A program made the position numbers and the translations under genes. From Henriciella sp. (GTDB lineage Bacteria; Pseudomonadota; Alphaproteobacteria; Caulobacterales; Hyphomonadaceae): a stretch of 48,406 bases of DNA. Under the pieces are notes generated by a model that had not been told where the DNA came from, searched no databases, and saw only the letters and a program-made list of their open reading frames with translations. Below are positions 5,646 through 39,289 of the stretch, piece after piece. Location: positions 1 through 48,406 of the forward strand of contig JABSQB010000021.1 of the NCBI GenBank assembly GCA_013214545.1, written 5' to 3'. The stretch's first letter is position 1; the number at the start of each line of letters is the position of its first letter.

Positions 5646-5778
5646 TACCAATCTCCCTTTTTGTGATCCCGTTTTCTCGAACATGATCTTAATCGCCCGG
5701 CTTGGATTTGCACAGGCAGTGAGCTCGCAAGCGCGCGCCGCCAAAGTAATCCATTTGGCGCTGATCATCGACTGTGTG

Positions 5779-5805: not shown

Positions 5806-5810
5806 CGAAA

Positions 5811-5826
5811 TTGACAACGTTGTCTG
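5811..5826. promoter_or_regulatory. LacI-family operator at the oxidoreductase operon start
   Basis: TTGACAACGTTGTCTG contains the perfect 12-base palindrome GACAACGTTGTC (5813-5824). It sits 23 bases before the first start codon of the operon and just downstream of a probable -10 box. It is the best-conserved copy of the motif in the window. Confidence 0.7.
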
Positions 5827-5848
5827 ATTTGGATTCAAGGAGCGCCAC

Positions 5849-8025: not shown

Positions 8026-8069
8026 AACTGCGCGGCCGGGAAAAGAGACAACGCGGCGAGGGAGGAACC

Positions 8070-15422: not shown

Positions 15423-15498
15423 TTTGTAACGCTTCCTCCTCTGATCGACCGCCATGAAAGCAATCAAAAACACTGTTTTTAAATAACTAAAACTGTTC

Positions 15499-15520
15499 AG
15501 CGTGTCCAAGCGAACACGCT
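15499..15520. repeat. inverted repeat in the GH3 leader
   Basis: AGCGTGT and ACACGCT form perfect seven-base arms around an eight-base spacer. The repeat lies 77-98 bases upstream of the GH3 start codon, between that gene and the divergent TonB receptor. It could be an operator or an mRNA hairpin. It does not match the LacI-type dyad. Confidence 0.4.
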
Positions 15521-15553
15521 TTCTGTGCATTTTCATAAACATAAAAAATGGAA

Positions 15554-15589
15554 TTGACAACGTAAGACAATTCTGAAATGTCTAGGCTC
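15554..15589 (+). promoter_or_regulatory. control element before the long TonB receptor: LacI half-site plus promoter-like box
   Basis: TTGACAACGTAAGACAA (15554-15570) carries the same left arm as the dyads at 5630 and 5811. CTAGGCTC follows at 15582-15589. The same layout (TTGACAACGT-x-AG-x-CAA, then CTA-purine-G) recurs at 23693-23724, and CTAGGCTC recurs at 30447-30454 before another TonB receptor. The element may combine an operator half with an alphaproteobacterial promoter. Confidence 0.45.
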
Positions 15590-15640: not shown

Positions 15641-18600
15641 GTGTCCAAAGTCTATTCACGGGATCGGTCCGTTGGGAATTCAGGCCGCAGTTTGATGCGC
15701 GGTGCATCACTGCTTGCGCTGTCGGTTGCGACCTTGTCTGGCGTCGCGCTTGGACAGGAGGCGGACGCGCCAGAGGATGAGGAAGCGCGTCAGGACACAG
15801 TCGTTGTCAAAGGCATTCGTGGCGCGTTGAAATCGGCGCAAGATCTGAAGCAGGATGCAGACGTTTTTGTTGATGCGATCACCGCAACCGACATTGGTGC
15901 GCTCCCGGACCGCTCCGTATCCGAGGCTTTGCAGCGTGTGCCAGGCGTCGTGGTTGAACGCTTCGCTGGACCGAACGACCCTGACCACTTTGCGGTTGAA
16001 GGGAGCGGCGTCATCGTTCGCGGTCTGCCTTTCGTGCGGTCTGAGCTGAACGGACGTGACGTATTCGCAGCGAACTCTTCTGGTGTTCTCGGGTTTGAGG
16101 ATGTGTCGCCGGAATTGCTTGGTTCAGTTCAGGTGTTCAAGAACCAGTCAGCCGACATGATCGAGGGCGGCATTGCCGGCTCGGTTAATCTGGTCACCCG
16201 GAAGCCATTCGACAGCTCTGGCCGTCAGCTCGCGTTCTCGGTTGAGGGAACGTATTCTGACTTCATCGAAGAGACCACGCCGTCTTATTCTGGCCTTTGG
16301 TCCGACCAGTGGGAAACCAGCTCCGGTCGTTTTGGCTTGCTGGCGAGCTTTGCCCACTCGGAGCTGAAATCGCGGGCAGACACGCCTCAGGCAGCAGACT
16401 TCCGCGAGTTCACGGACATCATCCCTGGTCAAAGCGTGTACATTCCCGCTGGTGGCGGCATCCGAACGCAAGAATTTGACCGCGAGCGCGATGCCATCGC
16501 CTTTGCCGGACAATGGGAGAGCCTCGACGGAACCATGATGGCGACGGCGCAATTCCTGCAGTCGGACGCAGATCTGGTCTGGGGTGAACGCGTTCTGGAA
16601 TCTTCCATCGACGACAATCCTGCGATCCAGGCACTGGCCGGAACAGAGTTTGAGTTTGGTGCGGACGGCGTTCTCACCACCGGCGTTGTTTCTGAAGTCG
16701 CAGGTTGGCGCGGCAACAATAACACACTGCCGCTGAACGGTGTGCGCCAACTCGCACTGGCACGTGAGCGTGCAGAGAATGACAAGACGTCTGACTTTGG
16801 CATCAATTTCAAATGGACTCCAAATGATCGCTGGGCGTTGAACTTTGATGTCCAGAAGGTCGACTCCGAGACCACCGTGCGTGACGTGACCGTTCATGGC
16901 GCATTCTACGCTGATCTCGGATTTGGGTTCGGTGACGAGACAGTCGGGATCGCGTACTTTGTGCCCACCGGAGAAGCCGACAACTATTTCCAGGATCCGA
17001 ACGAGTATTACTGGCGCTCGATCATGGACCACGCGCAGGACAGCGGAGCAGAGTCGCTCGCATTCCAGGGCGACGCCGAATATGATTTTGGCGGCGATGG
17101 CTTCCTGAAATCGGTTCGCTTCGGTGCACGTTATGCGGATCGCGATTCAGATCTGCGTTACTCTGACTTTAACTGGGGGAATGTCTCCGAAATCTGGACC
17201 GGCGCTGATGATCTTCTGACTCTGGAAGAAGCGAATGCTCAGTCTCCAGGCCTGTTCCAGCCGTTCGACTTTAACAACTATCTGCGGGGCACATCGCCAA
17301 TTTCGGGCGTGCCAATCTACAGTGGTCCGCTCGCTGAAGACTATGCCGGCTTTGAGGCAACGGTTCAGCCAATTCTGGCGGCGCAAGGCTCATTCGCCTC
17401 AACGCTCGGTCAACGCGGCGGCGTGGTCGACGGCGGCCTGTATCTCCCAGGTGAAATCGTCGACATCAATCAGGAGACGACCGCGATTTACGGGCGCGCT
17501 GATTTTGAGTTCGTCGATTTTCTTGCGCCAGGCTTCGTGCTCGATGGTAATGTCGGTGTGCGCTATGTCGAAACTGACGTTACGACGATGGGGCAGACAA
17601 CGATCCAGTCGACGACAGGCACGTTTGGTGTTGCTGATCTGGACGGCACCTGCGCGGCGGTTGTTCTAGGTGGACCTTCGCCGGACTTCTGTTCGCTCTC
17701 AACGGCGGAGCTACAGAACTTTGAGACCTTCTTCGGGACCAGCGATACCACGCTCGATCAGAATTTCTCGAACTCTTATGAGCATTTCCTCCCAAGCTTG
17801 AACCTGCGCCTTGATATCGGCGAGGGACGTCAGTTCCGCTTTGGTGTTTCGCAAGCTCTGGTCAGACCACAAGCCTTCGATCTGCGATCCAGCGGAACGA
17901 TTGACGAGGCTGAGGGCACACCAGGCACATTTGGTGGGATCGAGATTGTTTCGGGTAACCCGTTCCTCGAACCGATTACCGCGACGCAGTTCGACCTGTC
18001 ATACGAATGGTACTTTGCGGACACCGGATCGCTTACGCTGTCTTACTTCTGCAAGGATCTGGAAGATTATTGGATCGGAAGTGCCGGCAACCCTGGTGAT
18101 GATGTCGTCGCAGGCGGTGTCGCGGGTGTGGAAACCTTCACGAACAATGGCACGACAATCGATGTTAGCCGCCGATCTATCGTGAATGCTGGTGAAAGCG
18201 CATCGCTCAATGGCTTCGAGATTGCGTATCAGCAATTCTACGACATGCTCCCGGCTCCTTTCGACGGGTTCGGGGTGCAGGCCAACTACACTTACATCGA
18301 TGCGCAAGGGATCGGTGATCTCGATAATACCGGACAAGGCCGCTTTGCCCGAGATGCGACGGCGTTCGAACGTGTGTCAGAGCATCAATACAATCTGGTC
18401 GGTCTGTACGAAAAAGGTCCTTACCAAGCCCGGCTTGCGTGGAACTGGCGAGATGAATTCCTGCTGACCAAGCGGGACGTGATCTTCCCGTTCGCCTCGA
18501 TCTACCAAGAGCCGACAGGACAGCTCGATGCATCGTTCTTCTACGACATCAATGAGAACTTCAAAATTGGTGTGCAGGGCGTGAACCTACTCAATGATAT

Positions 18601-18703
18601 CACGGAAACGACCCAGACTATCAATGATGCTGGGCTCCGCGCGCCGCGATCCTTCAACGAGAATGATCGAAGATACTCGTTGATCTTGAGAGGCAACTTC
18701 TAG
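15641..18703 (+). CDS. TonB-dependent receptor, long Caulobacter/Xanthomonas type
   Basis: A 1020-residue outer-membrane receptor. A signal peptide ends near ALGQ (residue 39), and a TonB-box-like stretch DTVVVKGIRGAL lies at about 52-63. The plug (about 75-200) has the class features IGALPDRSVSEALQRVPGV and the segment MIEGGIAGSVNLVTRKP, and a beta-barrel fills the rest, ending RRYSLILRGNF with the terminal Phe. The length and the long plug match the subgroup used for carbohydrate uptake in Caulobacterales and Xanthomonadales. Translation starts at GTG 15641, with AGGGAGGT six to seven bases upstream. It is divergent from the GH3 gene and followed by a terminator, which together suggest uptake of beta-glucan-derived oligosaccharides. 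Confidence 0.95.
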   Translation: MSKVYSRDRSVGNSGRSLMRGASLLALSVATLSGVALGQEADAPEDEEARQDTVVVKGIRGALKSAQDLKQDADVFVDAITATDIGALPDRSVSEALQRVPGVVVERFAGPNDPDHFAVEGSGVIVRGLPFVRSELNGRDVFAANSSGVLGFEDVSPELLGSVQVFKNQSADMIEGGIAGSVNLVTRKPFDSSGRQLAFSVEGTYSDFIEETTPSYSGLWSDQWETSSGRFGLLASFAHSELKSRADTPQAADFREFTDIIPGQSVYIPAGGGIRTQEFDRERDAIAFAGQWESLDGTMMATAQFLQSDADLVWGERVLESSIDDNPAIQALAGTEFEFGADGVLTTGVVSEVAGWRGNNNTLPLNGVRQLALARERAENDKTSDFGINFKWTPNDRWALNFDVQKVDSETTVRDVTVHGAFYADLGFGFGDETVGIAYFVPTGEADNYFQDPNEYYWRSIMDHAQDSGAESLAFQGDAEYDFGGDGFLKSVRFGARYADRDSDLRYSDFNWGNVSEIWTGADDLLTLEEANAQSPGLFQPFDFNNYLRGTSPISGVPIYSGPLAEDYAGFEATVQPILAAQGSFASTLGQRGGVVDGGLYLPGEIVDINQETTAIYGRADFEFVDFLAPGFVLDGNVGVRYVETDVTTMGQTTIQSTTGTFGVADLDGTCAAVVLGGPSPDFCSLSTAELQNFETFFGTSDTTLDQNFSNSYEHFLPSLNLRLDIGEGRQFRFGVSQALVRPQAFDLRSSGTIDEAEGTPGTFGGIEIVSGNPFLEPITATQFDLSYEWYFADTGSLTLSYFCKDLEDYWIGSAGNPGDDVVAGGVAGVETFTNNGTTIDVSRRSIVNAGESASLNGFEIAYQQFYDMLPAPFDGFGVQANYTYIDAQGIGDLDNTGQGRFARDATAFERVSEHQYNLVGLYEKGPYQARLAWNWRDEFLLTKRDVIFPFASIYQEPTGQLDASFFYDINENFKIGVQGVNLLNDITETTQTINDAGLRAPRSFNENDRRYSLILRGNF

Positions 18704-18762: not shown

Positions 18763-18797
18763 AGGCCGGGCAGAGCTCTCTGTCCGGCCTTTGTTTT
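18763..18797 (+). terminator. intrinsic terminator after the long TonB receptor
   Basis: AGGCCGGGCAG pairs with CTGTCCGGCCT (11 pairs, one G-U) around a six-base loop and is followed by TTTGTTTT. It separates the receptor from the lactonase unit. It also shows that a frame starting at TTG 18791 begins inside the terminator, so the lactonase start is further down. Confidence 0.85.
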
Positions 18798-18803
18798 CCC
18801 CGG

Positions 18804-18819
18804 AACGCAAAATTGCGTT
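18804..18819. promoter_or_regulatory. perfect 7+7 inverted repeat before the lactonase gene
   Basis: AACGCAA-AA-TTGCGTT is a perfect 16-base dyad, 44 bases upstream of the lactonase start and just after the receptor terminator. Its size suits a dimeric repressor, for example of the LacI or GntR type. It differs from the TTGACAAC dyads, so a second regulator is possible. Confidence 0.45.
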
Positions 18820-18862
18820 GCAGCGTCTGAAGCGGAGGCTGCACTCATTTGGAGGCTTTCGC

Positions 18863-19885
18863 ATGTTATCCAGGCGATCTTTGCTGGCAACAATCGGAGC
18901 CACACCCTTGGTGGCGTGCGCTTCAAATCTGACGCTCGATAACGGCTCCGACGCCTCTGTTGTCGAGATCATGGCGCCCGGGATGAGTGATGTGATCGAC
19001 CCGAACAGTCGCTTCGATGTGCTCGGGACCGGATATCAATGGAGTGAGGGGCCGGCCTGGGACCGCGCGCGGGGAATTCTTTACTTCACCGATGTCCCTC
19101 AAAACAAAGCGTATCAATGGAGCGAGGGGCAGGGCGTTCAATTGTTCATGGACCCTTCCGGCGCTTCACGCACAGAAGGCTTTCGAGAGCCGGGCGCTAA
19201 TGGCCTTTGGTATTCATCCGATGGCTCCCTGTTGATTTGCAATCATGGTCACCGCGCGATCGAGTGCATGAATTTAGACTCGCGAGAGGTTTCGGTTCTG
19301 GCGCAGGATTTCGCTGGCAAACGGTTCAACAGTCCCAACGATATTGTGCAAGCCCGAGATGGTACGCTGTTCTTCACAGATCCGCCCTATGGGCTGGCCG
19401 GACTGGATGCTTCGCCCCTGAAGCAGCAAGATGCGAACGGAGTTTATCGTCTGGATCCAGACGGCACCGTCACTCGCCTCATCTCCGATATGACGTTCCC
19501 AAATGGAATCGCGCTGTCGCCTGACGAGCAGACCCTCTATGTCAGTCAGTCTGATCCAGATGCCCCGGTCGTACGTGCGCTCGGTCTTGATTCGAGCCAT
19601 GGAATAACGTCTGACCGGATACTGTTTGATGCAGCCCCGTTCATGTCTGACTTGATGCCTGGCTTGCCGGACGGGATGGCCGTAAGCGCGAACGGCGCGC
19701 TCTTTGTCACGGGTCCTGGCGGTGTCTTTGTTCTCGCATCCGACGGCCAGCCGCTCGGTCGTATCCTGACCGGCCGCGCGACGGCGAATTGTACCTTTGG
19801 AGAAGCGGGCCGCAGTTTGTTCATCACTGCCGGTGACCGCCTATTACGGATTCGAACAAAAGTGCAGGGCGTACAGTGGAGCTGA
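18863..19885 (+). CDS. SMP-30/gluconolactonase-type lactonase lipoprotein
   Basis: A 340-residue exported lactonase. The start is ATG 18863, with GGAGG seven bases upstream; earlier in-frame codons lie in the terminator. The signal ends with a good lipobox LVAC (Cys19) preceded by Arg4-Arg5. The six-bladed propeller shows the metal and catalytic landmarks EGPAW, NSPNDIV, FFTDPPYGL, FPNGIALSP and LPDGMAV. The family opens sugar lactones such as glucono-1,5-lactone. It overlaps by 10 bases a gluconate permease gene, which fits conversion of an exported lactone to an aldonate followed by uptake. The lactone could come from the periplasmic GMC oxidase or from oxidised oligosaccharide ends. Confidence 0.92.
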   Translation: MLSRRSLLATIGATPLVACASNLTLDNGSDASVVEIMAPGMSDVIDPNSRFDVLGTGYQWSEGPAWDRARGILYFTDVPQNKAYQWSEGQGVQLFMDPSGASRTEGFREPGANGLWYSSDGSLLICNHGHRAIECMNLDSREVSVLAQDFAGKRFNSPNDIVQARDGTLFFTDPPYGLAGLDASPLKQQDANGVYRLDPDGTVTRLISDMTFPNGIALSPDEQTLYVSQSDPDAPVVRALGLDSSHGITSDRILFDAAPFMSDLMPGLPDGMAVSANGALFVTGPGGVFVLASDGQPLGRILTGRATANCTFGEAGRSLFITAGDRLLRIRTKVQGVQWS

Positions 19886-21221
19886 TACTCGACAACCGCC
19901 CGCTGATCGCGACGCTGGCGGGTATCGTCGCCCTTTTGGTCTTGATCCTGCGCGCGAAAATGCACGCATTCGCCGCCTTGCTATTGGTCGCCATCTTGAG
20001 CGCCTTAGCAGCCGGAATGGCGCCGGAACTTGCGTTCAAGACGGTGCAATCGGGGATGGGGGGCACGCTCGGCTTCATCGCTCCTGTTATCGGGCTGGGC
20101 GCCCTATTCGGAGCCATTCTGGAAGCAAGCGGCGCGGTTCAGGCACTGGCGAAGAAAGTCGCATCTTTCAAGTCCGTTGGAAAGCAAAGATGGGCGATGG
20201 GTGGTCTAGGCTTGGTTGCGGCGACTCCAGTCTTTTTTGACGTCGCGCTCATCATTCTGATGCCGTTTATCGCCGCGCTCTCGTCGCGCACGGGCCGTGT
20301 CGCCATGGTGTTTGGATTGCCCTTGTGTGCAGGTCTCGCCGTGGGGCATGCCTTCGTGCCGCCGACGCCTGGACCGATCGCGATCGCCGAATTGATCGGC
20401 GCTGACCTTGGATGGGTGATCTTGTTCGGCGCGATCACGGGATTGATATCCATGGCTGTGGCAGGTCCCGTTCTGTCCTGGTGGCTCGAGCGCAACGGCA
20501 AGATGCCGGGAGTTGTCGAAGTACCGCCGCAGACTTTGGACGCTCCTACTCCGAGCATTTCGTTCGAACTGGCGGGCGCGCTCATCGCCTTGCCCCTGAT
20601 TTTGATCCTCGCAGGAACGCTGGGAGGCTTGGTCCTCCCGAGCGGGTTTTGGAAGGATCTCGTCCAAGTCTGCGGACATCCGTTCTCCGCATTGCTGATC
20701 GCGAGTGGTGTGACACTACTTTTGCTTGCGCCGAAGGATGATGAGTCGAAGGCGCGCATGCGTGAAGCGATCACGCGCGCATTCGAACCGACCGGAATCG
20801 TCATTCTCGTGACGGGTGCTGGGGGGCGTTCAAGCAGGTTCTCGTTGATACGGGCGCCGGGGCTCAACTCGCAGAAGGCGTTTTGTCAGTCGGATTGACG
20901 CCAATTCTTGTCGGTTTCGTACTCGCCTTGCTGGTTAGGCTGGCTCAAGGCAGCGCCACTGTGGCGATGATCACTGCGGCGGGTCTTGCTGCACCAATTG
21001 TCGCTGTTGGTGCGTTGTCGGCACCGGAACTCGGACTCGTTACAGTCGCGATTGCCGCGGGTGCGAGTGGGTTCTCACACGTCAATGATTCCGGGTTTTG
21101 GTTGGTCAGTCGTCTGTTCAAGATCAATGAAGCTGAGACACTGCGGACATGGACCGTTTCAACGGGCCTGATTGCAGTGACGGGGCTGATATCAGCGTTG
21201 CTCTTGTCTGTTCTGGTATGA
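19876..21221 (+). pseudogene. GntP-family gluconate permease with a one-base frameshift
   Basis: Two frames together make one GntP-type carrier of about 448 residues, the usual family length. The first, from GTG 19876, covers about 315 residues of family sequence with about ten hydrophobic segments and PVFFDVALIILMPF and AFVPPTPGPIA motifs. At the G-run 20821-20826 the frame shifts: ...VTGAGG continues in the other frame as AFKQVLVDTGAGAQ and runs through GSATVAMITAAG and HVNDSGFW to a TGA at 21219-21221. Adding one G (seven instead of six) restores the whole protein. The GTG start overlaps the lactonase stop by 10 bases. The break is either a real inactivating or phase-variable deletion or a homopolymer sequencing error. 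The untouched downstream half argues for a recent event or an error. Confidence 0.9.
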
Positions 21222-21263: not shown

Positions 21264-22634
21264 ATGACCAAGCTGAGGACCTTAGCGGGCTATGGGGTCG
21301 GAGATTTCGGCCTCAATATCTACTGGAACACGCTCTCAATCTGGCTCGTCTTTTGGTACACGACAATTGTCGGGATCGAGCCAGGCGTCGCCGGAACGAT
21401 TTTCTTCATCGGCATGATCTGGGACGCGATTTCAGATCCGGTCGTCGCCTCTGTTGCCGAGCGCGTGCGCACGCGGCACGGAACATATCGTCCGTTCCTA
21501 TTGTATGGTAGCTTTGGACTTGCCGCTTGTTTCGTATTGCTTTTTTGGGTCCCTCCATTCGAAGGCGCGACGCTGTTGGTCACGTTGATTGCGATCAATA
21601 TCCTGTTCAGAACCTCCTACACGCTGGTCGCTATTCCTTATGCCGCGCTGTCTGCTCGCATCACCTACAATAGCGTTGAGCGAACCGAGTTTACCGGGTT
21701 TCGAATGTTCGCGGCTTTTGCCGGGTTGCTCGTCGTATCAAGCCAGTTTCCGCCATTGATCCGCTATTTCAGCGAAGGCGCTGAGCACTCTGCGCGAGGC
21801 TTTCAGTATACCGCTTTGGTGGGCGGAGCACTGGCCACGGTCGCTCTTATCGCGTGCTTTTTGGGAACGCGTGAAAAGCCGCTCCCCACGCGCACCGTTC
21901 GGGCAAAGCTGTCCCCTCGCGAGGTGCTACGCCTATTGCGCGAGAATCGCGCGCTGTTGTTCTTGCTCTTGATCATCGTCCTGCAGTCTGGCGCGAGCGC
22001 CTGCATGAACATCTCGATGATCTTCTTTATTGTCAGCAATCAACCAGCTTTTGCGTCTAAAGAAGTTGTGCTCACGGCATTTGCGGTTGCGACGATGGCA
22101 GGCATTCCGCTCTGGACGCTTTTCATTCGGCGGTTTGGAAAGAAGCAAGCGTGGATCACCTCTTCGATTCTTATAACGGTTTCAGGGCTACACATGTTGC
22201 TGGCCGGGCCATTTCTGATTCAGGGCGTGCCGCTGCAGATTGTTGGGTTCGGCTTGTGTATGGGGGCGTTTGCGGTGCTGCTTTGGTCGTTCATTCCAGA
22301 CACCGTTGAGTTTGGGCAAAACGCCTCCGGAAAACGCTCCGAAGGGGTGGTGTTCGGATCGGTTTTGGTGGTTCAAAAGATCTCTGGCGGTTTTATGGGC
22401 TTTGTCGTCGGGCAGGTCCTCGGCTTTATCGGATATGACAAAGATGCCACTGCGCAGGCGGCTGAAGTCGGGCAAGGGCTCGTAGTGTTTCTCGCAATAT
22501 GTCCGGCTTTTTTGCTGTTCCTCAGTATAATTCCCATAATTTTGTTACCTTTAGACAGACGAATCCATGCTGATATCGTTGACAGTCTGTCCGATGAAAA
22601 TCATGAAAGTAGCAGAGGGGAGGGCCTGACTTGA
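21264..22634 (+). CDS. GPH-family (MelB-like) sugar:cation symporter
   Basis: A 456-residue carrier with about 12 membrane helices. The GPH signature is clear: GYGVGDFGLNIYW at the N-terminus, IWDAISDPVV (the DAxxDP cation-site motif of MelB relatives), RTRHGTYRPFLL in the loop after helix 3, and a C-terminal SVLVVQKISGGFMGF helix. Members import glycosides, pentosides or hexuronides with H+ or Na+. It lies 42 bases after the gluconate permease and overlaps the LacI regulator by four bases (TTGA), so regulator and carrier are probably co-transcribed and respond to the carried sugar. Confidence 0.92.
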   Translation: MTKLRTLAGYGVGDFGLNIYWNTLSIWLVFWYTTIVGIEPGVAGTIFFIGMIWDAISDPVVASVAERVRTRHGTYRPFLLYGSFGLAACFVLLFWVPPFEGATLLVTLIAINILFRTSYTLVAIPYAALSARITYNSVERTEFTGFRMFAAFAGLLVVSSQFPPLIRYFSEGAEHSARGFQYTALVGGALATVALIACFLGTREKPLPTRTVRAKLSPREVLRLLRENRALLFLLLIIVLQSGASACMNISMIFFIVSNQPAFASKEVVLTAFAVATMAGIPLWTLFIRRFGKKQAWITSSILITVSGLHMLLAGPFLIQGVPLQIVGFGLCMGAFAVLLWSFIPDTVEFGQNASGKRSEGVVFGSVLVVQKISGGFMGFVVGQVLGFIGYDKDATAQAAEVGQGLVVFLAICPAFLLFLSIIPIILLPLDRRIHADIVDSLSDENHESSRGEGLT

Positions 22635-23662
22635 CGAAAATGATCGATGTCGCGCGTCATGCTGGCGTGTCTCTGAAAACGGTTTCACGGGTTCTGAATA
22701 ATGAGCCGCACGTGCAGACATCTCTGCGCGAGAAAGTGCGCGAAGCCGTGCGGGAGCTTGGCTATGTGCCCAGCGCATCGGCGCGGAGCCTGCGGTCCAA
22801 TCGAACCTATTCGATCCACTTGTTCAGCCACTCGTTGAGAAGCAACTTTGTGAATTCCATTCAGTTTGGCGCGCTCCAGACTTGTCAGGAGGCTGGCTAC
22901 CGGATGGTCGTGACGATGCTGGATCAGGCGAAGGTCTCGGATAAGAAAAAGTTGCGCAAGTGGTTTCAGAACCTTGTCGATAATGGTCGCCCTGATGGCG
23001 TCATCCTCGTGCCGCCAATGTCGAACGATTTCCAGATCAGTGAAGTCATGTCCGAGTTCAATCTGCCTGTCGCCCGGATCGGTCCAAACAAAATCGAAGA
23101 CGGCGGCGTCACTGTGACCATTGATGATCGGGCCGCCGCACGCGAAGCGACCCAGCATTTGCTTGATCTGGGACACACGAAGATTGCATTCGTACGAGGT
23201 AAGGAAGATCAAGACGCAACACATGAGCGGTACAAAGGCTTTTGCGAAGCGCTTGCCGATGCTGGTATCGAATTGGACGACGATCTCGTGAAACCCGGTC
23301 TGTTTGATTTCCAGACCGGGCTTGTCGCTGGGAACGAATTGCTGGCTTTGCCAAAAAAGAAACGCCCGACCGCAGTCTTTGCTGCGAACGATGATATGGC
23401 AGCCGGTGTGCTCGTAGCAGCGCACAAATCCGGCATTCAGGTGCCGAGCGAATTGTCTATTGTTGGCTTCGATGATTCTGAAATTGCCGAGACCATGTGG
23501 CCCGAGTTGACGACGGTTAGACAGCCCCTGCAACAATTTGGTAGCGTTGCGATGGAGATGATGATTGCCAATTCGGGTAAGAAGACCGGCGATGCGGGAG
23601 AGACAAAGACGTTGCCTTACATCATGATGGTACGTCAATCGACGGGCCCTGCACCGAGCTGA
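22631..23662 (+). CDS. LacI-family transcriptional regulator
   Basis: A 343-residue repressor-type regulator. The helix-turn-helix is at residues 4-24 (MIDVARHAGVSLKTVSRVLNN). The hinge helix SARSLRS includes Leu54, the residue that in LacI relatives wedges into the central CG step of the operator. A periplasmic-binding-protein-like sugar domain follows (about 60-335). The start is TTG 22631, preceded by GGGGAGGG six bases upstream; the ATG at 22640 is less well spaced. It is the only LacI-type gene in the window and the natural candidate for the TTGACAAC dyads at 5630, 5811, 15554 and 23693. The last begins 31 bases after its own stop codon. Confidence 0.94.
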   Translation: MTKMIDVARHAGVSLKTVSRVLNNEPHVQTSLREKVREAVRELGYVPSASARSLRSNRTYSIHLFSHSLRSNFVNSIQFGALQTCQEAGYRMVVTMLDQAKVSDKKKLRKWFQNLVDNGRPDGVILVPPMSNDFQISEVMSEFNLPVARIGPNKIEDGGVTVTIDDRAAAREATQHLLDLGHTKIAFVRGKEDQDATHERYKGFCEALADAGIELDDDLVKPGLFDFQTGLVAGNELLALPKKKRPTAVFAANDDMAAGVLVAAHKSGIQVPSELSIVGFDDSEIAETMWPELTTVRQPLQQFGSVAMEMMIANSGKKTGDAGETKTLPYIMMVRQSTGPAPS

Positions 23663-23692
23663 TTAAACTCGATTATTCAATCGGCTGACGCA

Positions 23693-23724
23693 TTGACAAC
23701 GTGAGCCAATATGAGAGTCTAAGG
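23693..23724 (+). promoter_or_regulatory. control element before the halogenase operon: LacI half-site plus promoter-like box
   Basis: TTGACAACGTGAGCCAA (23693-23709) differs from the 15554 element at only two of 17 positions. CTAAGG follows at 23719. TTGACA itself is a consensus -35 hexamer, so repressor binding would block polymerase. It lies 85 bases upstream of the first halogenase start. Confidence 0.5.
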
Positions 23725-23777
23725 ACGTAACTTTAACGGCCAGCAGGGGACGTAAGCGAGCGGCTTGCGCGATACTA

Positions 23778-25292
23778 TTGAGTGAGCAGAAGCCATCCTT
23801 GAATGTTGTCATTGTCGGCGGTGGTACCGCGGGGTGGATGACAGCGGCCGGGCTTGCGAGTCTGTTAGCGGATACCGGGCTCAACATCACCTTGGTTGAA
23901 AGCGAAGCGATCGGCACTGTGGGCGTCGGCGAAGCAACCTTGCCGCATTTGCGTTTCTTCAATCAAACGATCGGGATCGATGAGTATGATTTCATGGCGG
24001 CCACTCGGGCGACCGTGAAACTTGGCATTGAGTTTGTCGATTGGGCCCGCAAAGGCGATCGCTATATTCACCCATTCGGCGACTATGGCATTCCGAACGA
24101 CGGGATCGGTTTTCATCAATTCTGGCGCCGGTTCGCTGAAATGCTTGGTCCGATCTCGAATTTCTCGTTGCCGGTTGTTGCAGCGGAGCTTGGACGGTTC
24201 GAGCCTCCAAGCAGCGACGAGCGTTCGGCTCTGTCCACGTTTCGATTTGCCTACCAATTCGATGCCACGCGTTATGCGCCTTATTTGCGTCGCCATGCGG
24301 AGGCCCGCGGTGTCACGCGGATTGAAGGACGCGTCGTCGATGTGGCCCTCGATGAGCAAGGCGATATCGATCGCCTTTCATTGGAGGATGGGCGTGAGAT
24401 TGAGGGAGACCTGTTTGTAGACTGCAGCGGGTTCTTCGGCTTGCTGATCGAGAAGGCGCTGAAAACCGGCTATGATCAGTGGACGGATTGGCTTCCTTGT
24501 GACCGGGCTGTGGCGGCGCCTTGCGAGCATGCTGAGCCGCTTTTGCCTTACACGCGTGCGACGGCGCGTGAAGCGGGATGGCAATGGCGTATTCCGTTGC
24601 AGCACCGCACGGGTAACGGCTATGTTTATGCGAGCCAGTTCATCAGCGATCAGGACGCCGAAGATGCACTTGTTCAATCATTGGAAGGCCCACTTCTAGC
24701 AGAGCCAAAGATCCTGCGCTTCGTCACTGGAAAGCGAAAGAAGCTGTGGAACCGAAACTGTGTCGCGATCGGTCTCTCTGGTGGCTTCCTCGAGCCATTG
24801 GAGTCGACCAGTATTTATCTCATCCAGCAGGGCATCACTTACCTGATCGAACTGTTTCCGAACCTCGCGGACGTAGATACGCTTCGCTCCGAGTATAATC
24901 GCATGATGGATCTCGAGTTTGAACGCATCCGCGATTTTCTGATCCTGCACTATCACGCCACTGAACGCTCAGACGCGCCGCTGTGGGAGATGATGCGGGC
25001 GCTTGATGTGCCGGATAGCCTAAAAGAGAAAATGGCCTTGTTTCGCGCGCGCGGGCAGGTCCAGACATATGATCATGGATTGTTTTTGGAACCCAGCTGG
25101 CTTGCGGTCTATCTAGGCCAGCGCGTGATCCCAGAGCATTACGATCCGCGGGTGAACGAGCATCCAGAGCGGGAGTTGCTGTCCCAGCTCACTGGAATGA
25201 AGCAGCACATTCGCCAGTCCGCGGAAAAAATGGCGACGCACCAAACTTGGATCGATGCGCATTGTCCGGCTCCGATGGAGGCTTTGGTATGA
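23778..25292 (+). CDS. PrnA-type flavin-dependent halogenase, copy 1
   Basis: A 504-residue flavoprotein. The FAD motif GGGTAGWM (residues 14-21), the family-defining W268-x-W270-x-I-P273 motif, Lys81 in the position of the essential lysine of PrnA (TVKLGIEF) and Glu342 in EPLEST are all present, so halogenase chemistry is possible: reduced flavin plus O2 plus halide giving HOCl or HOBr passed to the lysine. Tryptophan is the classical substrate, but receptor-linked copies are unassigned. The only in-frame start between the upstream stop (23712-23714) and the flavin motif is TTG 23778, and its ribosome-binding site is poor. No flavin reductase gene is seen in the window. It is the first gene of a run with overlapping starts and stops. 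Confidence 0.93.
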   Translation: MSEQKPSLNVVIVGGGTAGWMTAAGLASLLADTGLNITLVESEAIGTVGVGEATLPHLRFFNQTIGIDEYDFMAATRATVKLGIEFVDWARKGDRYIHPFGDYGIPNDGIGFHQFWRRFAEMLGPISNFSLPVVAAELGRFEPPSSDERSALSTFRFAYQFDATRYAPYLRRHAEARGVTRIEGRVVDVALDEQGDIDRLSLEDGREIEGDLFVDCSGFFGLLIEKALKTGYDQWTDWLPCDRAVAAPCEHAEPLLPYTRATAREAGWQWRIPLQHRTGNGYVYASQFISDQDAEDALVQSLEGPLLAEPKILRFVTGKRKKLWNRNCVAIGLSGGFLEPLESTSIYLIQQGITYLIELFPNLADVDTLRSEYNRMMDLEFERIRDFLILHYHATERSDAPLWEMMRALDVPDSLKEKMALFRARGQVQTYDHGLFLEPSWLAVYLGQRVIPEHYDPRVNEHPERELLSQLTGMKQHIRQSAEKMATHQTWIDAHCPAPMEALV

Positions 25293-26236
25293 TGCGTGAT
25301 GCTGGTCCGATCACAATCATTGGGGCGCCTGCAGAGGCGTGGTTCGCCGCTTGTTTGCTAGCGCGCTTTGCGCCCGTTCCGGCAGAGATTATCCGAGTGA
25401 ACGTTCGGGGAAACGAAAACGCTGAAAATGAGACGCTGATCGCCCGCCCCCAAATGCGCCGGGTGCATTCGAGTCTCGGGCTCGATCTGGCGAAAGCGGG
25501 CGCACGCCTTGTGTGCGACTGGCCAGCCGGGCAAGGTCGTAGCATTTCTTTCGGCGCAATCGGAGCGCCCTATAAAGGCGTCAGTTTCGTTTCTATTTGG
25601 CAGCGCGCGAAAGCGCTGAAAATCGAAGCTGGATCTCTGCTCGATTACGCGGTGCCTGCTCAAGGCTTTGCGATATCGCGCTCAGACTATGCGGATGCGT
25701 TAAGATCGATCGCCTTGCAGGTCGGCGTCCGAGAAACCGATCGTCCGGAAGGAACACAAGTCTGCGTTTCTCGCGACGTGGGAGGAAATGCAGATACGCG
25801 GAAGCTCGGAGCTGCGGCGCTCCCCATTAGTTTGACTTCAGCGCTTACGCTTTTGGCGCTCGAAAGAAGCGTTCGCGCTTGGATCGATTGCTGGCCTTGG
25901 ACTTCAGATGATGTCTCAGTTTGCGCGGCCGAGTTTGAACGTCGACTGGAATTGATCACCTCGCCGCTCGAAGACATGCAATCCTTGCTATTGGAAGGAC
26001 CGCAAGGCGTCAGCGAAGGCTCGCTCGCGCAGCATCGTATTGCGCTATGGCGCCAATTGGGACGGATTGCGCCAATCGATCATGATCTGTTTGAGCCGCA
26101 GGAATGGATCGCCGCGTTAATGCTATCCGGCGTCACACCGGAGGGAGGTGAACGCTTGGCCCAAAGCCTGACGGTGGAGGAAATCAAAGCGCACCTTGAT
26201 GCCGTTCGCGCGCGGGAGATTGCCCATGCCGAATGA
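25289..26236 (+). CDS. shrunken halogenase-like protein, probable pseudoenzyme
   Basis: A 315-residue protein starting at ATG 25289, whose ATGA overlaps the copy 1 stop. An in-frame start at 25247 would lie inside copy 1. Traces of the halogenase fold are visible: an N-terminal strand and turn ITIIGAPAEAWFAACLLA (the glycine motif is degraded to GAPAEAW), SDYADALR matching the FDATRYAAYLR segment, and FEPQEWIAALMLSGVTPEG matching the LFxxxSWLAVxLGQxxxPxxYDP segment near the halogenase C-terminus. The WxWxIP motif, the catalytic lysine region and the EPLEST segment are absent, and about 190 residues are missing overall. It is unlikely to be catalytic and might be a partner or regulatory subunit of the neighbouring halogenases. 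Its overlapping junctions with both neighbours argue that it is translated. Confidence 0.75.
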   Translation: MMRDAGPITIIGAPAEAWFAACLLARFAPVPAEIIRVNVRGNENAENETLIARPQMRRVHSSLGLDLAKAGARLVCDWPAGQGRSISFGAIGAPYKGVSFVSIWQRAKALKIEAGSLLDYAVPAQGFAISRSDYADALRSIALQVGVRETDRPEGTQVCVSRDVGGNADTRKLGAAALPISLTSALTLLALERSVRAWIDCWPWTSDDVSVCAAEFERRLELITSPLEDMQSLLLEGPQGVSEGSLAQHRIALWRQLGRIAPIDHDLFEPQEWIAALMLSGVTPEGGERLAQSLTVEEIKAHLDAVRAREIAHAE

Positions 26237-27755
26237 TCCGATCAGGAAGGTTGTCATCGTTGGCGGCGGCACAGCGGGCTGGATGACCGCCGCCGCTTTG
26301 TCGCGTTATCTGCCGAAGACCACAACCAGCATCACGCTCGTTGAAAGCGAAGCGATCGGGACGGTTGGAGTCGGCGAAGCCACGATTCCGCAAATCGCTG
26401 ATTTCAATCGAATGCTTGGTATCGATGAGAATGAGTTCGTCCGAGAGACAGCGGGGACTTTCAAGCTCGGGATCGAGTTTGCCGATTGGGGGCGCGTCGG
26501 TGATCGCTACTTTCATCCGTTCGGATCTTATGGATTTGATCTTGAGGGCACTGATTTCCATCATTTCTGGCTGCGCTTGTCGCAGATGCAGGACACACCT
26601 GGGCTCGATGCGTATTCGCTGAATGCCTCTGCCGCCTATGCTGGGAAGTTCATCCGTCCTGATGGTGACCCTAGATCGATCTTAAGCCGCTTGGGGTATG
26701 CCTTCCATTTCGACGCCACGCGTTATGCCGCTTACTTACGGAAATACTCGGAAAAACGCAGCGTGCGCCGAGTCGAAGGCAAAGTGACGAGGGTCGAGCA
26801 ACGCGGCGACGACGGTTACATCGAAGCTGTAGTGCTTGAAGACGGTTCACGCCTCGATGGCGATCTGTTCGTCGATTGTACGGGATTCAAAGCCCTGCTG
26901 ATGGGCGAGACACTTGGCGTCGGATACCGTGACTGGAGCGACCTGTTGCCGATGGATCGGGCGGTTGCCTTGCCAACAAAAAGCGAAGAGCCGCCTAAAC
27001 CCTATACGATCGCGACCGCCCGCGAAGCTGGTTGGACATGGCGTATTCCGCTGCAACACCGCGTTGGAAACGGGCACGTCTATTCCAGTCGGTTTATGGA
27101 CGCCGATCGAGCGACTGAAATTCTGTTAGACAATGTGGATGGTGAGCCCATTGGAGAGCCGCGGCACCTTCGTTTTGTGACGGGTCGACGAGAACAGTTC
27201 TGGAAAGCCAATTGCGTCGCCATAGGACTGTCGGCTGGCTTCCTGGAGCCTTTGGAATCGACTTCAATTCATCTCATTCAGACAGGCGTGGCAAAGCTGT
27301 TGGCGCTGTTTCCGAACCGCAGTTTCAATGCCGTGGAGCGCGATGAGTATAATCGGCTCCTGGCGACGAGTTATCAGCATACGCGTGATTTCATTCTGCT
27401 TCATTATGTGGCGACGGAGCGAACCGACTCGCCGTTCTGGCAGTATGTCCGTGAGATCGAGATCCCGGAAACGCTGCAGCACAAGATGGTCCTACTGGAG
27501 AGCAGCGGCAGTTTCTTCCGCTATGAGGATGAGTTGTTTTCAGTCGTCAGCTGGCTGGCTGTTATGCACGGTCAAAGACGCGGACCGACTGGGTACAATA
27601 CGGTGGCCGATGGTTTGAGCGAGGACAATCTGACGAAAAGCCTGGCCAATATGCGCGGGCTGATCAGCAAAACGGTCGATGCGATGCCGACCCATCAACA
27701 ATTCATCGATCGCTTTTGCGGCATCAAATCAACAATGCCTGAGGAGGTCGCATGA
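26226..27755 (+). CDS. PrnA-type flavin-dependent halogenase, copy 2
   Basis: A 509-residue enzyme starting at ATG 26226 (GGGAGA six to seven bases upstream), which overlaps the preceding stop by 11 bases; an in-frame ATG at 26196 would extend further into that gene. It has GGGTAGWM at residues 13-20, Lys80 in TFKLGIEF, WTWRIP for the WxWxIP motif and FLEPLESTSIHLIQ, all expected for an active halogenase. The C-terminal part ends with SWLAVMHGQRRGPTGYNTVAD and a helical tail. It is more similar to copies 1 and 3 than to the copy at 35085. The next gene starts within its stop codon (ATGA). Confidence 0.93.
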   Translation: MPNDPIRKVVIVGGGTAGWMTAAALSRYLPKTTTSITLVESEAIGTVGVGEATIPQIADFNRMLGIDENEFVRETAGTFKLGIEFADWGRVGDRYFHPFGSYGFDLEGTDFHHFWLRLSQMQDTPGLDAYSLNASAAYAGKFIRPDGDPRSILSRLGYAFHFDATRYAAYLRKYSEKRSVRRVEGKVTRVEQRGDDGYIEAVVLEDGSRLDGDLFVDCTGFKALLMGETLGVGYRDWSDLLPMDRAVALPTKSEEPPKPYTIATAREAGWTWRIPLQHRVGNGHVYSSRFMDADRATEILLDNVDGEPIGEPRHLRFVTGRREQFWKANCVAIGLSAGFLEPLESTSIHLIQTGVAKLLALFPNRSFNAVERDEYNRLLATSYQHTRDFILLHYVATERTDSPFWQYVREIEIPETLQHKMVLLESSGSFFRYEDELFSVVSWLAVMHGQRRGPTGYNTVADGLSEDNLTKSLANMRGLISKTVDAMPTHQQFIDRFCGIKSTMPEEVA

Positions 27756-29257
27756 GCCATCCCGATGCGATCCAGAAAATTGTCATCCTTGGCGGCGGTA
27801 CAGCAGGCTGGATGACGGCTGCGACGCTTGCCCATTTGTTGGATGCAAACCGCGTCTCGGTGACGCTGATCGAAAGCGAGCAAATCGGCACCGTCGGGGT
27901 CGGCGAAGCGACCATCCCGCCGATCCTGTTGTTCAATCAAATGCTCGGGATTGATGAGAAGGCGTTCATTCGAGAAACCAAGGCAACCTTCAAGCTTGGC
28001 ATCGAGTTTGTGAACTGGGGCGGTCTAGGCGAAGCGTACATTCATCCGTTTGGCGACTTCGCGACGGACATCGAAACACTGCCGATGCATCATCATTGGC
28101 TGCGTGCCAAGGCCGCTGGATATGATCGCAACCTGTTTGATTTCTCGCTTATGGTTCAGGCCTGCCGACGCGGTAGATTTGTCCATCCGGTGACTAACAA
28201 TCCGCGCTCTGTTTTGGCTGGGGTGCATTACGCTTACCAATTCGATGCCAGCCTTTATGCGGCTTATCTGCGAAGTTACGCCGAGCAGCGTGGCGTCAAG
28301 CGTGTCGAAGGGCGGGTGGCAAGCGTCGATCAGAACAGTGAGACAGGTTTTGTTGAGAGCCTGAAGCTGGAAGACGGTCAAAGTGTAGACGGTGAGTTCT
28401 TTATCGATTGCTCCGGATTTCGCGGAATACTGATCGAGCAGACACTGAATTGCGGGTATCAAGATTGGTCGCATTGGTTGCCCGTGGATCGGGCCGTCGC
28501 CGTGCCGTGTGAAAAGGCCGGACCCGCATTGCCTTACACTCGCTCAACCGCTCATGGGGCAGGGTGGCAGTGGCGCATTCCGCTACAGCATCGCACCGGA
28601 AACGGTCACGTCTATTGTAGTGAGTTCATCAGCGATGATGAAGCGCACGCGACCTTGCTTGAGGGCCTCGATGGCAAGCCCGTGGCCGAACCCAATTTCC
28701 TGCGGTTCAAGACCGGTCATCGGCGCAAGTTTTTCGACAAGAACGTACTGGCGCTCGGCCTCTCAGCAGGGTTCATGGAGCCGCTTGAATCGACGTCCAT
28801 TCATTTGATCCAGACGGGAATAGCGCGCCTCATGGCTCTGTTCCCGGACAAAAGGTTCACCCAGGTTGATACAGACGCGTACAACCAGCGCACCCTGTTT
28901 GAGTATGAGCGCGTGCGTGATTTTTTAATCTTGCACTATGTTGCGACCAATCGCGATGACACACCGTTCTGGCGGCACTGTCAGTCACTGCCAGTGCCGG
29001 ACACGTTGCAGCAAAAGATTGATCAGTATCGTTCAGCAGGAAGGATCTTTAGGGAGAGCAATGAGCTCTTCACTGAATCCAGCTGGCTCGCCGTGATGCA
29101 TGGGCAAGGAATTGAAGCGGACGCCTGGAACCCCATTGCTGATCGTTTTGATGGCTCCGCAATGATCGAACGTCTCGACGGGATGGCAGATATCATCGCT
29201 CGCGCTACGGAGGCGATGCCGGAGCACGAAGCCTACATCCAAGAGATGATCGCATAA
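27752..29257 (+). CDS. PrnA-type flavin-dependent halogenase, copy 3
   Basis: A 501-residue enzyme, with its start overlapping the copy 2 stop by four bases. It has GGGTAGWM at about residues 14-21, Lys81 in TFKLGIEF, WQWRIP for the WxWxIP motif and FMEPLESTSIHLIQ. All expected flavin and catalytic motifs are intact. Three paralogues in tandem suggest either stepwise modification of one substrate or parallel handling of several. Like the other copies it has no signal peptide, so it acts in the cytosol, and the receptor-imported or carrier-imported compound would have to reach the cytosol. The AraC regulator follows after 53 bases. Confidence 0.93.
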   Translation: MSHPDAIQKIVILGGGTAGWMTAATLAHLLDANRVSVTLIESEQIGTVGVGEATIPPILLFNQMLGIDEKAFIRETKATFKLGIEFVNWGGLGEAYIHPFGDFATDIETLPMHHHWLRAKAAGYDRNLFDFSLMVQACRRGRFVHPVTNNPRSVLAGVHYAYQFDASLYAAYLRSYAEQRGVKRVEGRVASVDQNSETGFVESLKLEDGQSVDGEFFIDCSGFRGILIEQTLNCGYQDWSHWLPVDRAVAVPCEKAGPALPYTRSTAHGAGWQWRIPLQHRTGNGHVYCSEFISDDEAHATLLEGLDGKPVAEPNFLRFKTGHRRKFFDKNVLALGLSAGFMEPLESTSIHLIQTGIARLMALFPDKRFTQVDTDAYNQRTLFEYERVRDFLILHYVATNRDDTPFWRHCQSLPVPDTLQQKIDQYRSAGRIFRESNELFTESSWLAVMHGQGIEADAWNPIADRFDGSAMIERLDGMADIIARATEAMPEHEAYIQEMIA

Positions 29258-34188: not shown

Positions 34189-35094
34189 ATGGCGGATATC
34201 TTCTATGACTCCACCGATGGGCTGAAACTCTATGCCCGCGATTATGGCAGTACTGATGCGCCGCTCACAGTCTTGTGCATGCATGGACTAACGCGCAACC
34301 ATAAGGATTTCGAGCCGATGATCGCCCGTCTCGGCGATCAGTATCGATACATCAGCGTCGACGTTCGCGGGCGCGGTCGATCTGATCGCGTGAGCGACTC
34401 CAGTCTGTATAATCCGATGCAGTATGCGCACGATATGGTTGCGCTTCTTGATCATCTCGCGCTGGACCAAGTGGTACTGATCGGGACGTCCATGGGCGGC
34501 CTCATGTCCATGCTGCTGATGGAAATGATTCCGGACAGGGTTTTGGGTGTCTTGCTCAATGATATCGGCCCGGTGCCAAACCAAGCGGGTCTAATCCGTA
34601 TCTCAGAGTATGCCACGAAGACGCCAATCTATGCTGACTGGCAGGCGGCCGCCGACGCAATCGCTAAGACGCAAAGCGTTGCCTACCAGGACTACACTTT
34701 CTCCGATTGGGAAGCCTTTGCGCGGCGGACTTGTCGGCGACAGGATGACGGCACCATCGTTCCCGACTTTGACCCCGGCATCATGGATGCGTTCTCGATC
34801 GAGTCGCCGAGCAGGATCATAAAGTTCAATATGTGGCGACTGTTCGGAAAACTGAAACGCTGTCCCTTGCTCATCCTGCGCGGCGAGTCCTCAGATATTC
34901 TCACGCACAAGATGGCAGAGCGTATGCGACGACGACATTGCGGCAGCAGATTAGTCAGTATACCGCGGCGCGGGCATGCGCCCATGCTTGATGAGCCGGA
35001 GGCAATTGCCGCAATTGGTCGTTTCCTGGATCAAATCAGCTCAAGTGAATCCGAGCGATCACGCCAAAGCGCATCCAACGGCGTTCAATTGTAG
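34189..35094 (+). CDS. alpha/beta hydrolase
   Basis: A 301-residue cytosolic serine hydrolase. The oxyanion/entry motif MHGLTRNHKDFEP is at residues 31-43. Nucleophile Ser101 lies in GTSMGG. A later strand, LLILRGESSDIL, supplies the acid Asp, and RRGHAPMLDEP supplies the His, so the triad is complete. The fold resembles esterases and C-C bond hydrolases; substrate unknown. The start lies two bases after the MFS stop. Its 3' end overlaps the convergent halogenase gene by 10 bases. Together with the MFS carrier and nearby receptors it may hydrolyse an imported ester or lactone. Confidence 0.9.
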   Translation: MADIFYDSTDGLKLYARDYGSTDAPLTVLCMHGLTRNHKDFEPMIARLGDQYRYISVDVRGRGRSDRVSDSSLYNPMQYAHDMVALLDHLALDQVVLIGTSMGGLMSMLLMEMIPDRVLGVLLNDIGPVPNQAGLIRISEYATKTPIYADWQAAADAIAKTQSVAYQDYTFSDWEAFARRTCRRQDDGTIVPDFDPGIMDAFSIESPSRIIKFNMWRLFGKLKRCPLLILRGESSDILTHKMAERMRRRHCGSRLVSIPRRGHAPMLDEPEAIAAIGRFLDQISSSESERSRQSASNGVQL

Positions 35095-36683
35095 TTCGGC
35101 ATTTGCAGAATTTGTTTCAACCAAACGTCGTGCGGCGGGAGTTTCGCGGGCGCCGCTTGAAGTCGTCCAGCGACCCTGGGGTGCACTTGTGTGCGATGAC
35201 GTGAAGCGCCTAAGCGTTCGGCCATCTGGTCGCCCATAAAATCCATCCCGAACAAAATTGCCTCATAGCTGCTGGCTGGGAAAACATTGCCCGTATCTAT
35301 GGGTTGCCGGACATCGCTGAACCCTTCCGGACGGGCGGCTCCAGAAGCCGGTGTGGTTGGGAAATGCTGGTCTTCAAAATCGGTATCCGTCGGTCCTTTG
35401 TGCCGCCAGAATTCAAGTTTCGCCTTCAACCGGTCGGTGACGCGCTCGCTGCGCTGTACCTCACGCCAGAATGCACTGTCGTCCCGTTTGGTCAGGCAAT
35501 AGTGCAGGTTGATGAAATCAAGGATCTCGTGGAAGCGATTGTAAATGATGCGATTATACCGGTAGGCAAGCTGAGACATGTCGTCCGTCATCGGGAAATA
35601 CTCCCTCAGCATCACAGCGGCGAGATCGCTCAAATAAAGCCCCGTAGACTCCAGAGGTTCAATGAAGCCAGCTGACAATCCAATGGCTACGCAATTGCCG
35701 ACCCAGGCCCGCTCACGATAGCCGACTTTGAATTTCACCAGCCGCGTATCCAGACCCTCGGAATGCGCGCCCTCATATGAACGCAGCTCTTTTTCGGCTT
35801 CGTCGGTGCTAACAAAATCGCTGGCATGAACGTACCCGACCGCTCGCCGGTTTTGTAAGCCAATGTCCCAGATCCAACCGCTCGATAGCGCCGTTGACGT
35901 CGTGTAGGGTTTTACGTGACCGGGGTAATGATGCTCGTACGGGATCTTCATGGTGAGCGCCTGATCGCACATCAGCCACTGAGAGACATCGACAAAGCCA
36001 ACCCCCATCGCTTTTTCGATCAGCAGCGCGGCGAAGCCCGTGCAATCAATGTACAAATCCGCTTCCAACACTTGGCCCGATCGGCATTTTACCGACTGTA
36101 TGTTGCCGGTTTCACCGACGACCACGTCGTCAACATGGTCCAGGAGATGCGATACGCCTCTGGCCGTGCTGATTTTCTGCAGGAAGTGCGCGAACTTGAT
36201 CGCATCCATGTGGAAGGCGAATTTTAGCGGGCTGCCAAAATCCCAGCGCCCCATCATCACGGGGGCGAGATTCATGTCACACAGTTTCGGCTGGATCGAG
36301 ACTGTTTCCATGAAGGGGATTGAGCGATCGCTCGAAAACCAGTCCGCCCCGGTATTGTCGATTGGCGCATCTCTGAATCGTTGAAAAGAGTGGTGGTAAC
36401 CCTCGCCCTCATTCTTTAGCCAGTTGGTGAACTTGATCGACTGTTTGAACGTTGCGTCGGTTGCCTTCATGAATTCAACCAAATCAATGCCGACCACACT
36501 CAGAATGTGGTGAATGCTTGGGATCGTCGCTTCCCCGACACCGACCGTCGGTACGTCTGGCGACTCCACCAAGCAAATATCGGCGACTTTTCGACCGTTT
36601 CGATTTAAAGCAGCGTTTAGGTAGGCCGCAGTAATCCAGCCCGACGACCCGCCGCCGACAATCAAGACCTTTCTAGGATTCAT
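35085..36683 (-). CDS. divergent PrnA-type flavin-dependent halogenase, copy 4
   Basis: A 532-residue flavoprotein, longer than copies 1-3. The FAD motif is GGGSSGWI (residues 10-17). Lys80 sits in TFKQSIKFTNW and FIEPLESTGLYL is present. The WxWxIP signature reads WIWDIG, so Pro is replaced by Gly. The segment QSIKFTNW and the EST-Gly turn resemble the tryptophan halogenase-like proteins commonly found beside TonB receptors. The altered motif leaves halogenation uncertain: in halogenases the tryptophans keep substrate away from the flavin. The gene lies downstream of a TonB receptor on the same strand but after that gene's terminator. A weak CRP-like dyad is 30 bases upstream. A GGGAG ribosome-binding site precedes the ATG. 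Confidence 0.92.
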   Translation of the reverse strand: MNPRKVLIVGGGSSGWITAAYLNAALNRNGRKVADICLVESPDVPTVGVGEATIPSIHHILSVVGIDLVEFMKATDATFKQSIKFTNWLKNEGEGYHHSFQRFRDAPIDNTGADWFSSDRSIPFMETVSIQPKLCDMNLAPVMMGRWDFGSPLKFAFHMDAIKFAHFLQKISTARGVSHLLDHVDDVVVGETGNIQSVKCRSGQVLEADLYIDCTGFAALLIEKAMGVGFVDVSQWLMCDQALTMKIPYEHHYPGHVKPYTTSTALSSGWIWDIGLQNRRAVGYVHASDFVSTDEAEKELRSYEGAHSEGLDTRLVKFKVGYRERAWVGNCVAIGLSAGFIEPLESTGLYLSDLAAVMLREYFPMTDDMSQLAYRYNRIIYNRFHEILDFINLHYCLTKRDDSAFWREVQRSERVTDRLKAKLEFWRHKGPTDTDFEDQHFPTTPASGAARPEGFSDVRQPIDTGNVFPASSYEAILFGMDFMGDQMAERLGASRHRTQVHPRVAGRLQAAPAKLPPHDVWLKQILQMPNYN

Positions 36684-39242: not shown

Positions 39243-39260
39243 TGTCTTCCTCCGAATTCC

Positions 39261-39271
39261 GCGATAATCGC
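39261..39271. promoter_or_regulatory. 11-base palindrome in the receptor leader
   Basis: GCGAT-A-ATCGC is a perfect palindrome 19 bases upstream of the third TonB receptor start codon, close to its ribosome-binding site. It could be a second operator or a small leader hairpin. It is short enough to be chance. Confidence 0.25.
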
Positions 39272-39289
39272 AAGGAAGAAGCAAAATTC

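Follow-up and report, generated by a model that had tools for sequence, protein, structure and literature searches.

A 48,406-nt window of a Henriciella sp. genome (Hyphomonadaceae; GenBank assembly GCA_013214545.1, contig JABSQB010000021.1) was analysed around a run of four overlapping genes, here named FDH_A, psi, FDH_B and FDH_C. As read from sequence, this run joins enzymes of a known kind, three predicted flavin-dependent halogenases, to a new, conserved and non-catalytic partner, psi, with a defined link to one clade of TonB-dependent receptors. The arrangement suggests a multi-protein halogenase unit that has gone unrecognised; it recurs in many bacteria of water and soil, and operons that retain a dead halogenase relative occur in both Alpha- and Gammaproteobacteria.

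The four-gene cassette and its distribution

A first-pass annotation of the window had described three intact halogenases and a shrunken relative with short overlaps as for coupled translation, and this description held: the four genes (Table 1) overlap by 4 bases (FDH_A/psi), 11 bases (psi/FDH_B) and 4 bases (FDH_B/FDH_C), all on the forward strand. The Trp_halogenase profile PF04820 covers FDH_A, FDH_B and FDH_C from position 1 to 456 or 457 of 458, and each contains the GGGTAG motif, the catalytic Lys, WxWxIP and the EPLESTS loop with the catalytic Glu. In FDH_A, GGGTAG, K81, WxWRIP and E342 are invariant across 15 aligned family sequences; GGGTAG occupies residues 14–19, so that FDH_A would lack a signal peptide. 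On full-length profile matches and motifs, all three are predicted flavin-dependent (tryptophan/indole) halogenases. The PrnA-type label first given to them had to be replaced, since FDH_C scored 557 bits against 9LUQ and 485 bits against both 6FRL (BrvH) and 6Y1W (Xcc4156), compared with 281 bits for PrnA and 270–273 bits for RebH. By sequence FDH_C thus falls outside the PrnA-type free-tryptophan halogenases, and the active members, as tested with FDH_C, are classed as BrvH/Xcc4156-like rather than PrnA-like. A profile search of the host genome returned five halogenases above 430 bits (FDH_A, FDH_B, FDH_C, a fourth gene of the window, FDH_D, and one on another contig) together with a single weak row (E 9.5e-4); psi did not appear in these rows. 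In a search of the genus, psi was found in the host genome only within the window, and a psi query gave no match in plasmids.

The four-gene order is not unique to one genome. In the host's family, 105 genomes were searched with PF04820 and 20 regions from 19 genomes were examined, the counts being lower bounds. The complete A-psi-B-C order was present in at least 13 family loci (the window, L044 and L046–L056) and was cut by contig ends in three further family genomes (L045, L057/L058 and L059); L060 carried A-psi only and L061–L063 a lone halogenase. When an alignment of FDH_A orthologues was scanned over genome contigs, 582 relatives were obtained, and among the best 80, kept as named loci, psi lay directly 3' of the active gene (A) in 44. 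Psi-bearing loci occurred in Erythrobacter, Sphingorhabdus, Sphingomonas, Caulobacter, Asticcacaulis, Maricaulis, Oceanicaulis and Parvularcula, and in gammaproteobacterial genera such as Cellvibrio and Aliiglaciecola. A psi profile run over 398 genomes of the host's order matched 224, many through ordinary halogenases, and a degenerate gene stood beside an active-looking halogenase in all of the best 30 loci of that search. Spacing was tight, from −4 to +20 in 58/60 A-to-psi junctions (32/60 with a 4-base overlap) and in 40/53 psi-to-B junctions (28/53 with a 4-base overlap). Recurrence in many genomes makes the gene order more than chance, and the sequence comparisons indicate that A-psi-B-C is a real and conserved unit, probably coupled and probably an ancient cassette inherited largely as a whole.

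Psi and its tie to FDH_A

The PF04820 score of psi exceeds the 21-bit cut-off, with its best match to the N-terminal part of the profile. The window copy lacks GGGTAG, the catalytic Lys, WxWxIP and the EPLESTS loop, placing it by motif outside the catalytic flavin-dependent halogenases, in agreement with the earlier suggestion of a non-catalytic fourth member. Among 35 psi sequences none kept both K81 and E342 (Lys was aligned in 4 and Glu in 3, the K81 of the window psi being an alignment placement beside a deletion), none kept WxW..P and only 7 kept GxGxxG; W324 and W441 were kept in 97% of the psi having a residue there. An AlphaFold model of the window psi (pLDDT 83.6, pTM 0.83) had Xcc4156, BrvH and 9LUQ as its top Foldseek matches, with E 1.8e-12 and TM 0.74 by query length against 6Y1W (rmsd 9.1 over a gapped alignment), so that psi is predicted to retain a halogenase-like fold. 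Its dN/dS was 0.10–0.41 in 13/14 pairs, the remaining pair being saturated (pN/pS 0.30), and was above that of the A neighbour in every pair (pN/pS where saturated), if barely so in L095/L092 (0.20 vs 0.19). By these comparisons psi evolves fast and under purifying selection, as a maintained pseudoenzyme derived from the halogenase family.

Classing of genes by profile assigned psi to one partner: 58/62 A-class genes were followed by psi as against 3/143 other active genes, some of the classed sequences having trained the class profiles. The A-class exceptions were L099 (an overlapping-ORF artefact), L110 (twice) and L111, and the non-A genes followed by psi were in L096, L125 and L099 (the artefact); A-psi occurred without B or C in L060, L076, L078 and L132. 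In a tree of 137 proteins the 35 psi formed one branch (branch value 100) and the 35 A another (97), with psi subgroups matching A subgroups, while FDH_B and FDH_C did not form single branches. By gene order and phylogeny, psi belongs with FDH_A.

Some loci carry longer arrays. In Cellvibrio mixtus (L125, 6986–14503) three active-looking halogenases are interleaved with two psi-like genes, and L110 (5635–13312) and L111 (8445–16124) each contain a run of five halogenase-like genes. In both runs the third member has altered catalytic positions (GGAKWWPGATN / GGAKWWPEATN) and perhaps represents an early stage of psi decay.

A recurrent TonB receptor in variable sugar-uptake surroundings

The window encodes a TonB-dependent receptor, here termed K-type, about 5 kb upstream of the cassette; read by eye, its sequence likely begins with a signal peptide. 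A homologue of this receptor was found near the cassette in 49/54 module loci, at a median distance of 184 bp, and TIGR01782 was matched by 7/7 receptors tested. The 44 complete linked receptors formed one clade, apart from 20 unlinked receptors. Pairwise distances between receptors of different loci correlated with those of A (0.62, 29 loci), B (0.76, 27 loci) and C (0.70, 20 loci), as against −0.01 for A and GH3 (13 loci), species kinship not being controlled in any of these values. A profile of the K-type clade matched 18/105 family genomes, comprising 16 in which the cassette was seen, whole or cut, together with G009 and G025, in which a halogenase is adjacent; G004, with A-psi only, had no K-type receptor. 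Across the order, K-type receptors were present in 109/398 genomes. Sixty from outside the family were hand-picked from the order list in three score groups of 20 (low, middle and higher), and 55 of these had a halogenase within 6.5 kb. The full cassette therefore usually accompanies, as far as sequence can tell, one clade of TIGR01782 TonB receptor.

The first-pass annotation had placed the cassette behind a LacI gene in a sugar-uptake locus and had linked halogenases to TonB receptors. The setting was borne out by the LacI, MFS_2, GH3 and SMP-30 neighbours (Table 1), and by gene content (receptor, transporter, regulator and glycoside hydrolase) the locus corresponds to a TonB-linked carbohydrate utilisation (CUT) locus. 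The receptor link stood in a narrower form, restricted to a single clade, with sugar enzymes that differ around it: the sugar-cleaving neighbours vary by locus between GH3, GH5, GH9, GH10 and GH43, a carbohydrate kinase also being seen, and LacI homologues were present in 21/54 module loci. No compact palindrome serving as a LacI operator was found in 23640–23800, where the search gave just an 82% inverted pair 90 nt apart; a half-site alone, as had been proposed, was not searched for.

Table 1. Features of the halogenase cassette and its surroundings in the window
Feature	Position	Strand	Description
FDH_A	23778-25292	+	TTG start; predicted BrvH/Xcc4156-type flavin-dependent halogenase; PF04820 621.8 bits
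psi	25289-26236	+	ATG start; 315 aa shrunken halogenase paralogue; PF04820 34.7 bits
FDH_B	26226-27755	+	ATG start; predicted halogenase, all motifs; PF04820 630.1 bits
FDH_C	27752-29257	+	Predicted halogenase, all motifs; PF04820 651.3 bits
K-type TonB-dependent receptor	15641-18703	+	1020 aa; TIGR01782 628.5 bits; model pLDDT 80.9
LacI-family regulator	22631-23662	+	Pfam LacI, Peripla_BP_3; just upstream of FDH_A
MFS_2 sugar transporter	21264-22634	+	PF13347 282 bits
SMP-30/gluconolactonase-like protein	18791-19885	+	PF08450
GH3 glycoside hydrolase	12771-15560	-	PF00933, PF01915, PF18559

Other features of the window and of related loci were recorded. FDH_D (35085–36683, reverse strand), overlooked in the first-pass annotation, is a more distant halogenase (432 bits) that lies directly downstream of, and on the same strand as, another TonB receptor (36891–39284) and adjoins an alpha/beta hydrolase gene (34189–35094, forward strand). 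The fifth halogenase of the genome (contig C103, L003) lies beside a second K-type receptor (4787–8122), in divergent orientation. L097, L131 and L139 carry halogenase genes in convergent pairs (3' ends facing), next to receptors that lack the K-type motif. The GntP permease of the window (19876–20898, 340 aa) is matched only up to position 313 of the 440-position profile and looks shortened, L044 having a 450-aa ORF (3318–4670) at the GntP position. The receptor of L102 (Arthrobacter sp. TPD3018) groups with Sphingomonas receptors, and this record may be misassigned.

Candidate functions and known systems

The reading that we put forward, tentatively and with less than even confidence, is that FDH_A has psi as its non-catalytic partner and that the compound halogenated by the cassette is bulky, aromatic and tied to the receptor. 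The two proteins would be co-produced and would bind each other; in the resulting complex psi might stand in for one subunit of the dimer usual among halogenases, or else hold the substrate, and FDH_B and FDH_C would then halogenate other positions. For the chemistry we draw on BrvH (PMC5945002) and Xcc4156 (PMC7336383), both described, in the parts of these papers available, as active on indoles and not on free tryptophan, with an open site, bromide preferred or used exclusively, larger or peptide substrates suggested and the native substrate given as unknown. By analogy, the cassette enzymes would prefer bromide and leave free tryptophan unused, and their open active site could take a bulky indole or other aromatic substrate, perhaps a peptide, belonging to whatever the K-type receptor handles.

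Several observations weigh against this reading. With species kinship again uncontrolled, psi and the receptor show a weak mirror correlation (0.26), and LacI distances follow A (0.55), B (0.60) and C (0.70; 13–15 loci) about as well as receptor distances do, so the receptor is not the sole co-travelling gene. Five module loci (L055, L060, L078, L079 and L132) have no receptor homologue, although the genome of L055 carries a K-type receptor on another contig; three of the five, together with L076, where the homologue lies 7.4 kb away, have A-psi but neither B nor C. Among the 60 sampled K-type receptors psi was in view at only 22, many having a halogenase alone, and 5 lacked a halogenase within 6.5 kb (near contig ends in two cases, with full flanks in three). 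The long psi branches of the 137-protein tree make a single origin of psi less than certain. In L110 and L111 the gene behind A receives similar scores as psi and as an active enzyme; it is a possible intermediate by sequence, and this less decayed gene implies that catalytic loss is graded.

Somewhat less probable, and doubtful in our view, is that an aromatic glycoside or indole compound enters the cell by way of the receptor and a sugar transporter, to be halogenated in the cytoplasm by the three enzymes and psi. The sugar-uptake genes beside the cassette, the receptor usually near it, the absence of a signal peptide in FDH_A and the co-variation of LacI distances with A, B and C, which fits a sensed, imported compound, are all consistent with such a route. 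However, a protein with at least 8 hydropathy-predicted membrane segments was present in just 16/43 loci with enough flank, and the want of a fixed inner-membrane transporter weakens the case for cytoplasmic halogenation of an imported ligand; the glycoside hydrolase families change between loci, and GH3 distances do not track the enzymes.

It was also considered that the halogenases might modify the receptor's own tryptophans before export, psi being an adaptor that recognises the unfolded receptor. This is unlikely, and marginally more so in the specific form in which psi would present nascent-receptor tryptophans of the YNWGxxSExW loop to FDH_A, FDH_B and FDH_C and a brominated outer-membrane transporter would be exported. 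The close linkage of cassette and receptor clade would suit it, as would the peptide or larger substrates raised, in the text available, by the BrvH and Xcc4156 papers. W512 was present in 44/44 and W519 in 95% of linked receptors and both in 0/20 unlinked ones. In the receptor model W512 lies at the end of strand 489–514 and W519 in the following loop of ~90 residues, which, to judge by its length, is probably extracellular. Tryptophans in a loop would also suit sugar binding, however, and the enzymes and receptor lie in different compartments. Moreover, three full-flank K-type receptors without a nearby halogenase keep W512 (3/3) and W519 (2/3), the genome of one of the halogenase-less receptors (G125, L217) not being among the matched genomes of the psi-profile order search, and the motif is often absent beside lone or paired halogenases (L097, L103, L112, L113, L131 and L139). 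A general tryptophan enrichment of linked receptors was rejected: the initial p of 3e-6 (M vs U) came from the choice of controls, since the 20 unlinked receptors and the linked (M) set had been hand-picked among the matches listed and the control flanks not checked, and the enrichment vanished in a fairer sample of 40 receptors (L273–L312) among the matches listed for ten halogenase-rich genomes, one G032 row being omitted. Trp content was 1.10% in non-K linked and 1.03% in unlinked receptors (p 0.43), and p was 0.10 when all linked receptors were set against the unlinked. The difference that persisted was one of length: the 21 receptors having a halogenase within 6.5 kb had a median of 1047 aa, and the 19 without one a median of 931 aa (p 4e-6). 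The receptor as substrate is possible but not favoured.

More improbable still is that the active members serve in the cell as flavin monooxygenases with an aromatic substrate. The hits to QhpG, LodB and GoxB that would suit this were weak and all far below cut-offs, whereas WxWxIP, Lys and Glu are intact and the relatives BrvH and Xcc4156, as the accessible text of their reports states, halogenate indoles in vitro. That psi is a decaying relic without function can be given very little credence, for although the motifs are missing and more than a third of the length has been lost, an open frame persists at the same position in many genera, with dN/dS well below 1 and a confident predicted fold.

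The reading of psi as a partner of FDH_A can be set against what has been published. In a metagenome study, as far as its text was available, halogenase genes stand out in Caulobacterales (PMC10919026). The available text of a halogenase classification (PMC8269204) does not contain the words "TonB" or "operon", nor does the available main text of Blanvillain et al. (PMC1790865) contain "halogenase" or "tryptophan", and the titles and abstract openings of the open-licence literature searched described neither a dead halogenase partner nor a halogenase-TonB system. BrvH (6FRL, from Brevundimonas BAL3) resembles the cassette enzymes in family, in having all motifs and in Thr-Ser at the halide site, and a second halogenase gene lies upstream of it; unlike the cassette, it comes with no mention, in the portion of its report available, of a dead partner or four-gene cassette. 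Xcc4156 (6Y1W, from Xanthomonas campestris) shares the family and the open substrate site and is the nearest solved fold to psi; unlike psi, it has its catalytic residues, and the accessible text likewise mentions no dead partner. MibH, in the part of its description available, resembles the proposed chemistry in having an open site and halogenating tryptophan inside a peptide; it shares 26% identity with Xcc4156 and, unlike the cassette, belongs to a lanthipeptide pathway.

The nearest solved sequence to FDH_C is 9LUQ, the tryptophan halogenase of Pseudoalteromonas sp. L11. Tandem tryptophan halogenases acting in sequence on one scaffold are exemplified by KtzQ/KtzR, which, unlike the cassette of the window, sit in an antibiotic cluster and to our knowledge have no dead partner. 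Relatives of BrvH and Xcc4156 are common, and both structure papers, in the text available, leave the native substrates unknown; a dead partner and a recurrent receptor offer two handles on this question. The weak activity seen in past single-enzyme assays may reflect a partner that was lacking.

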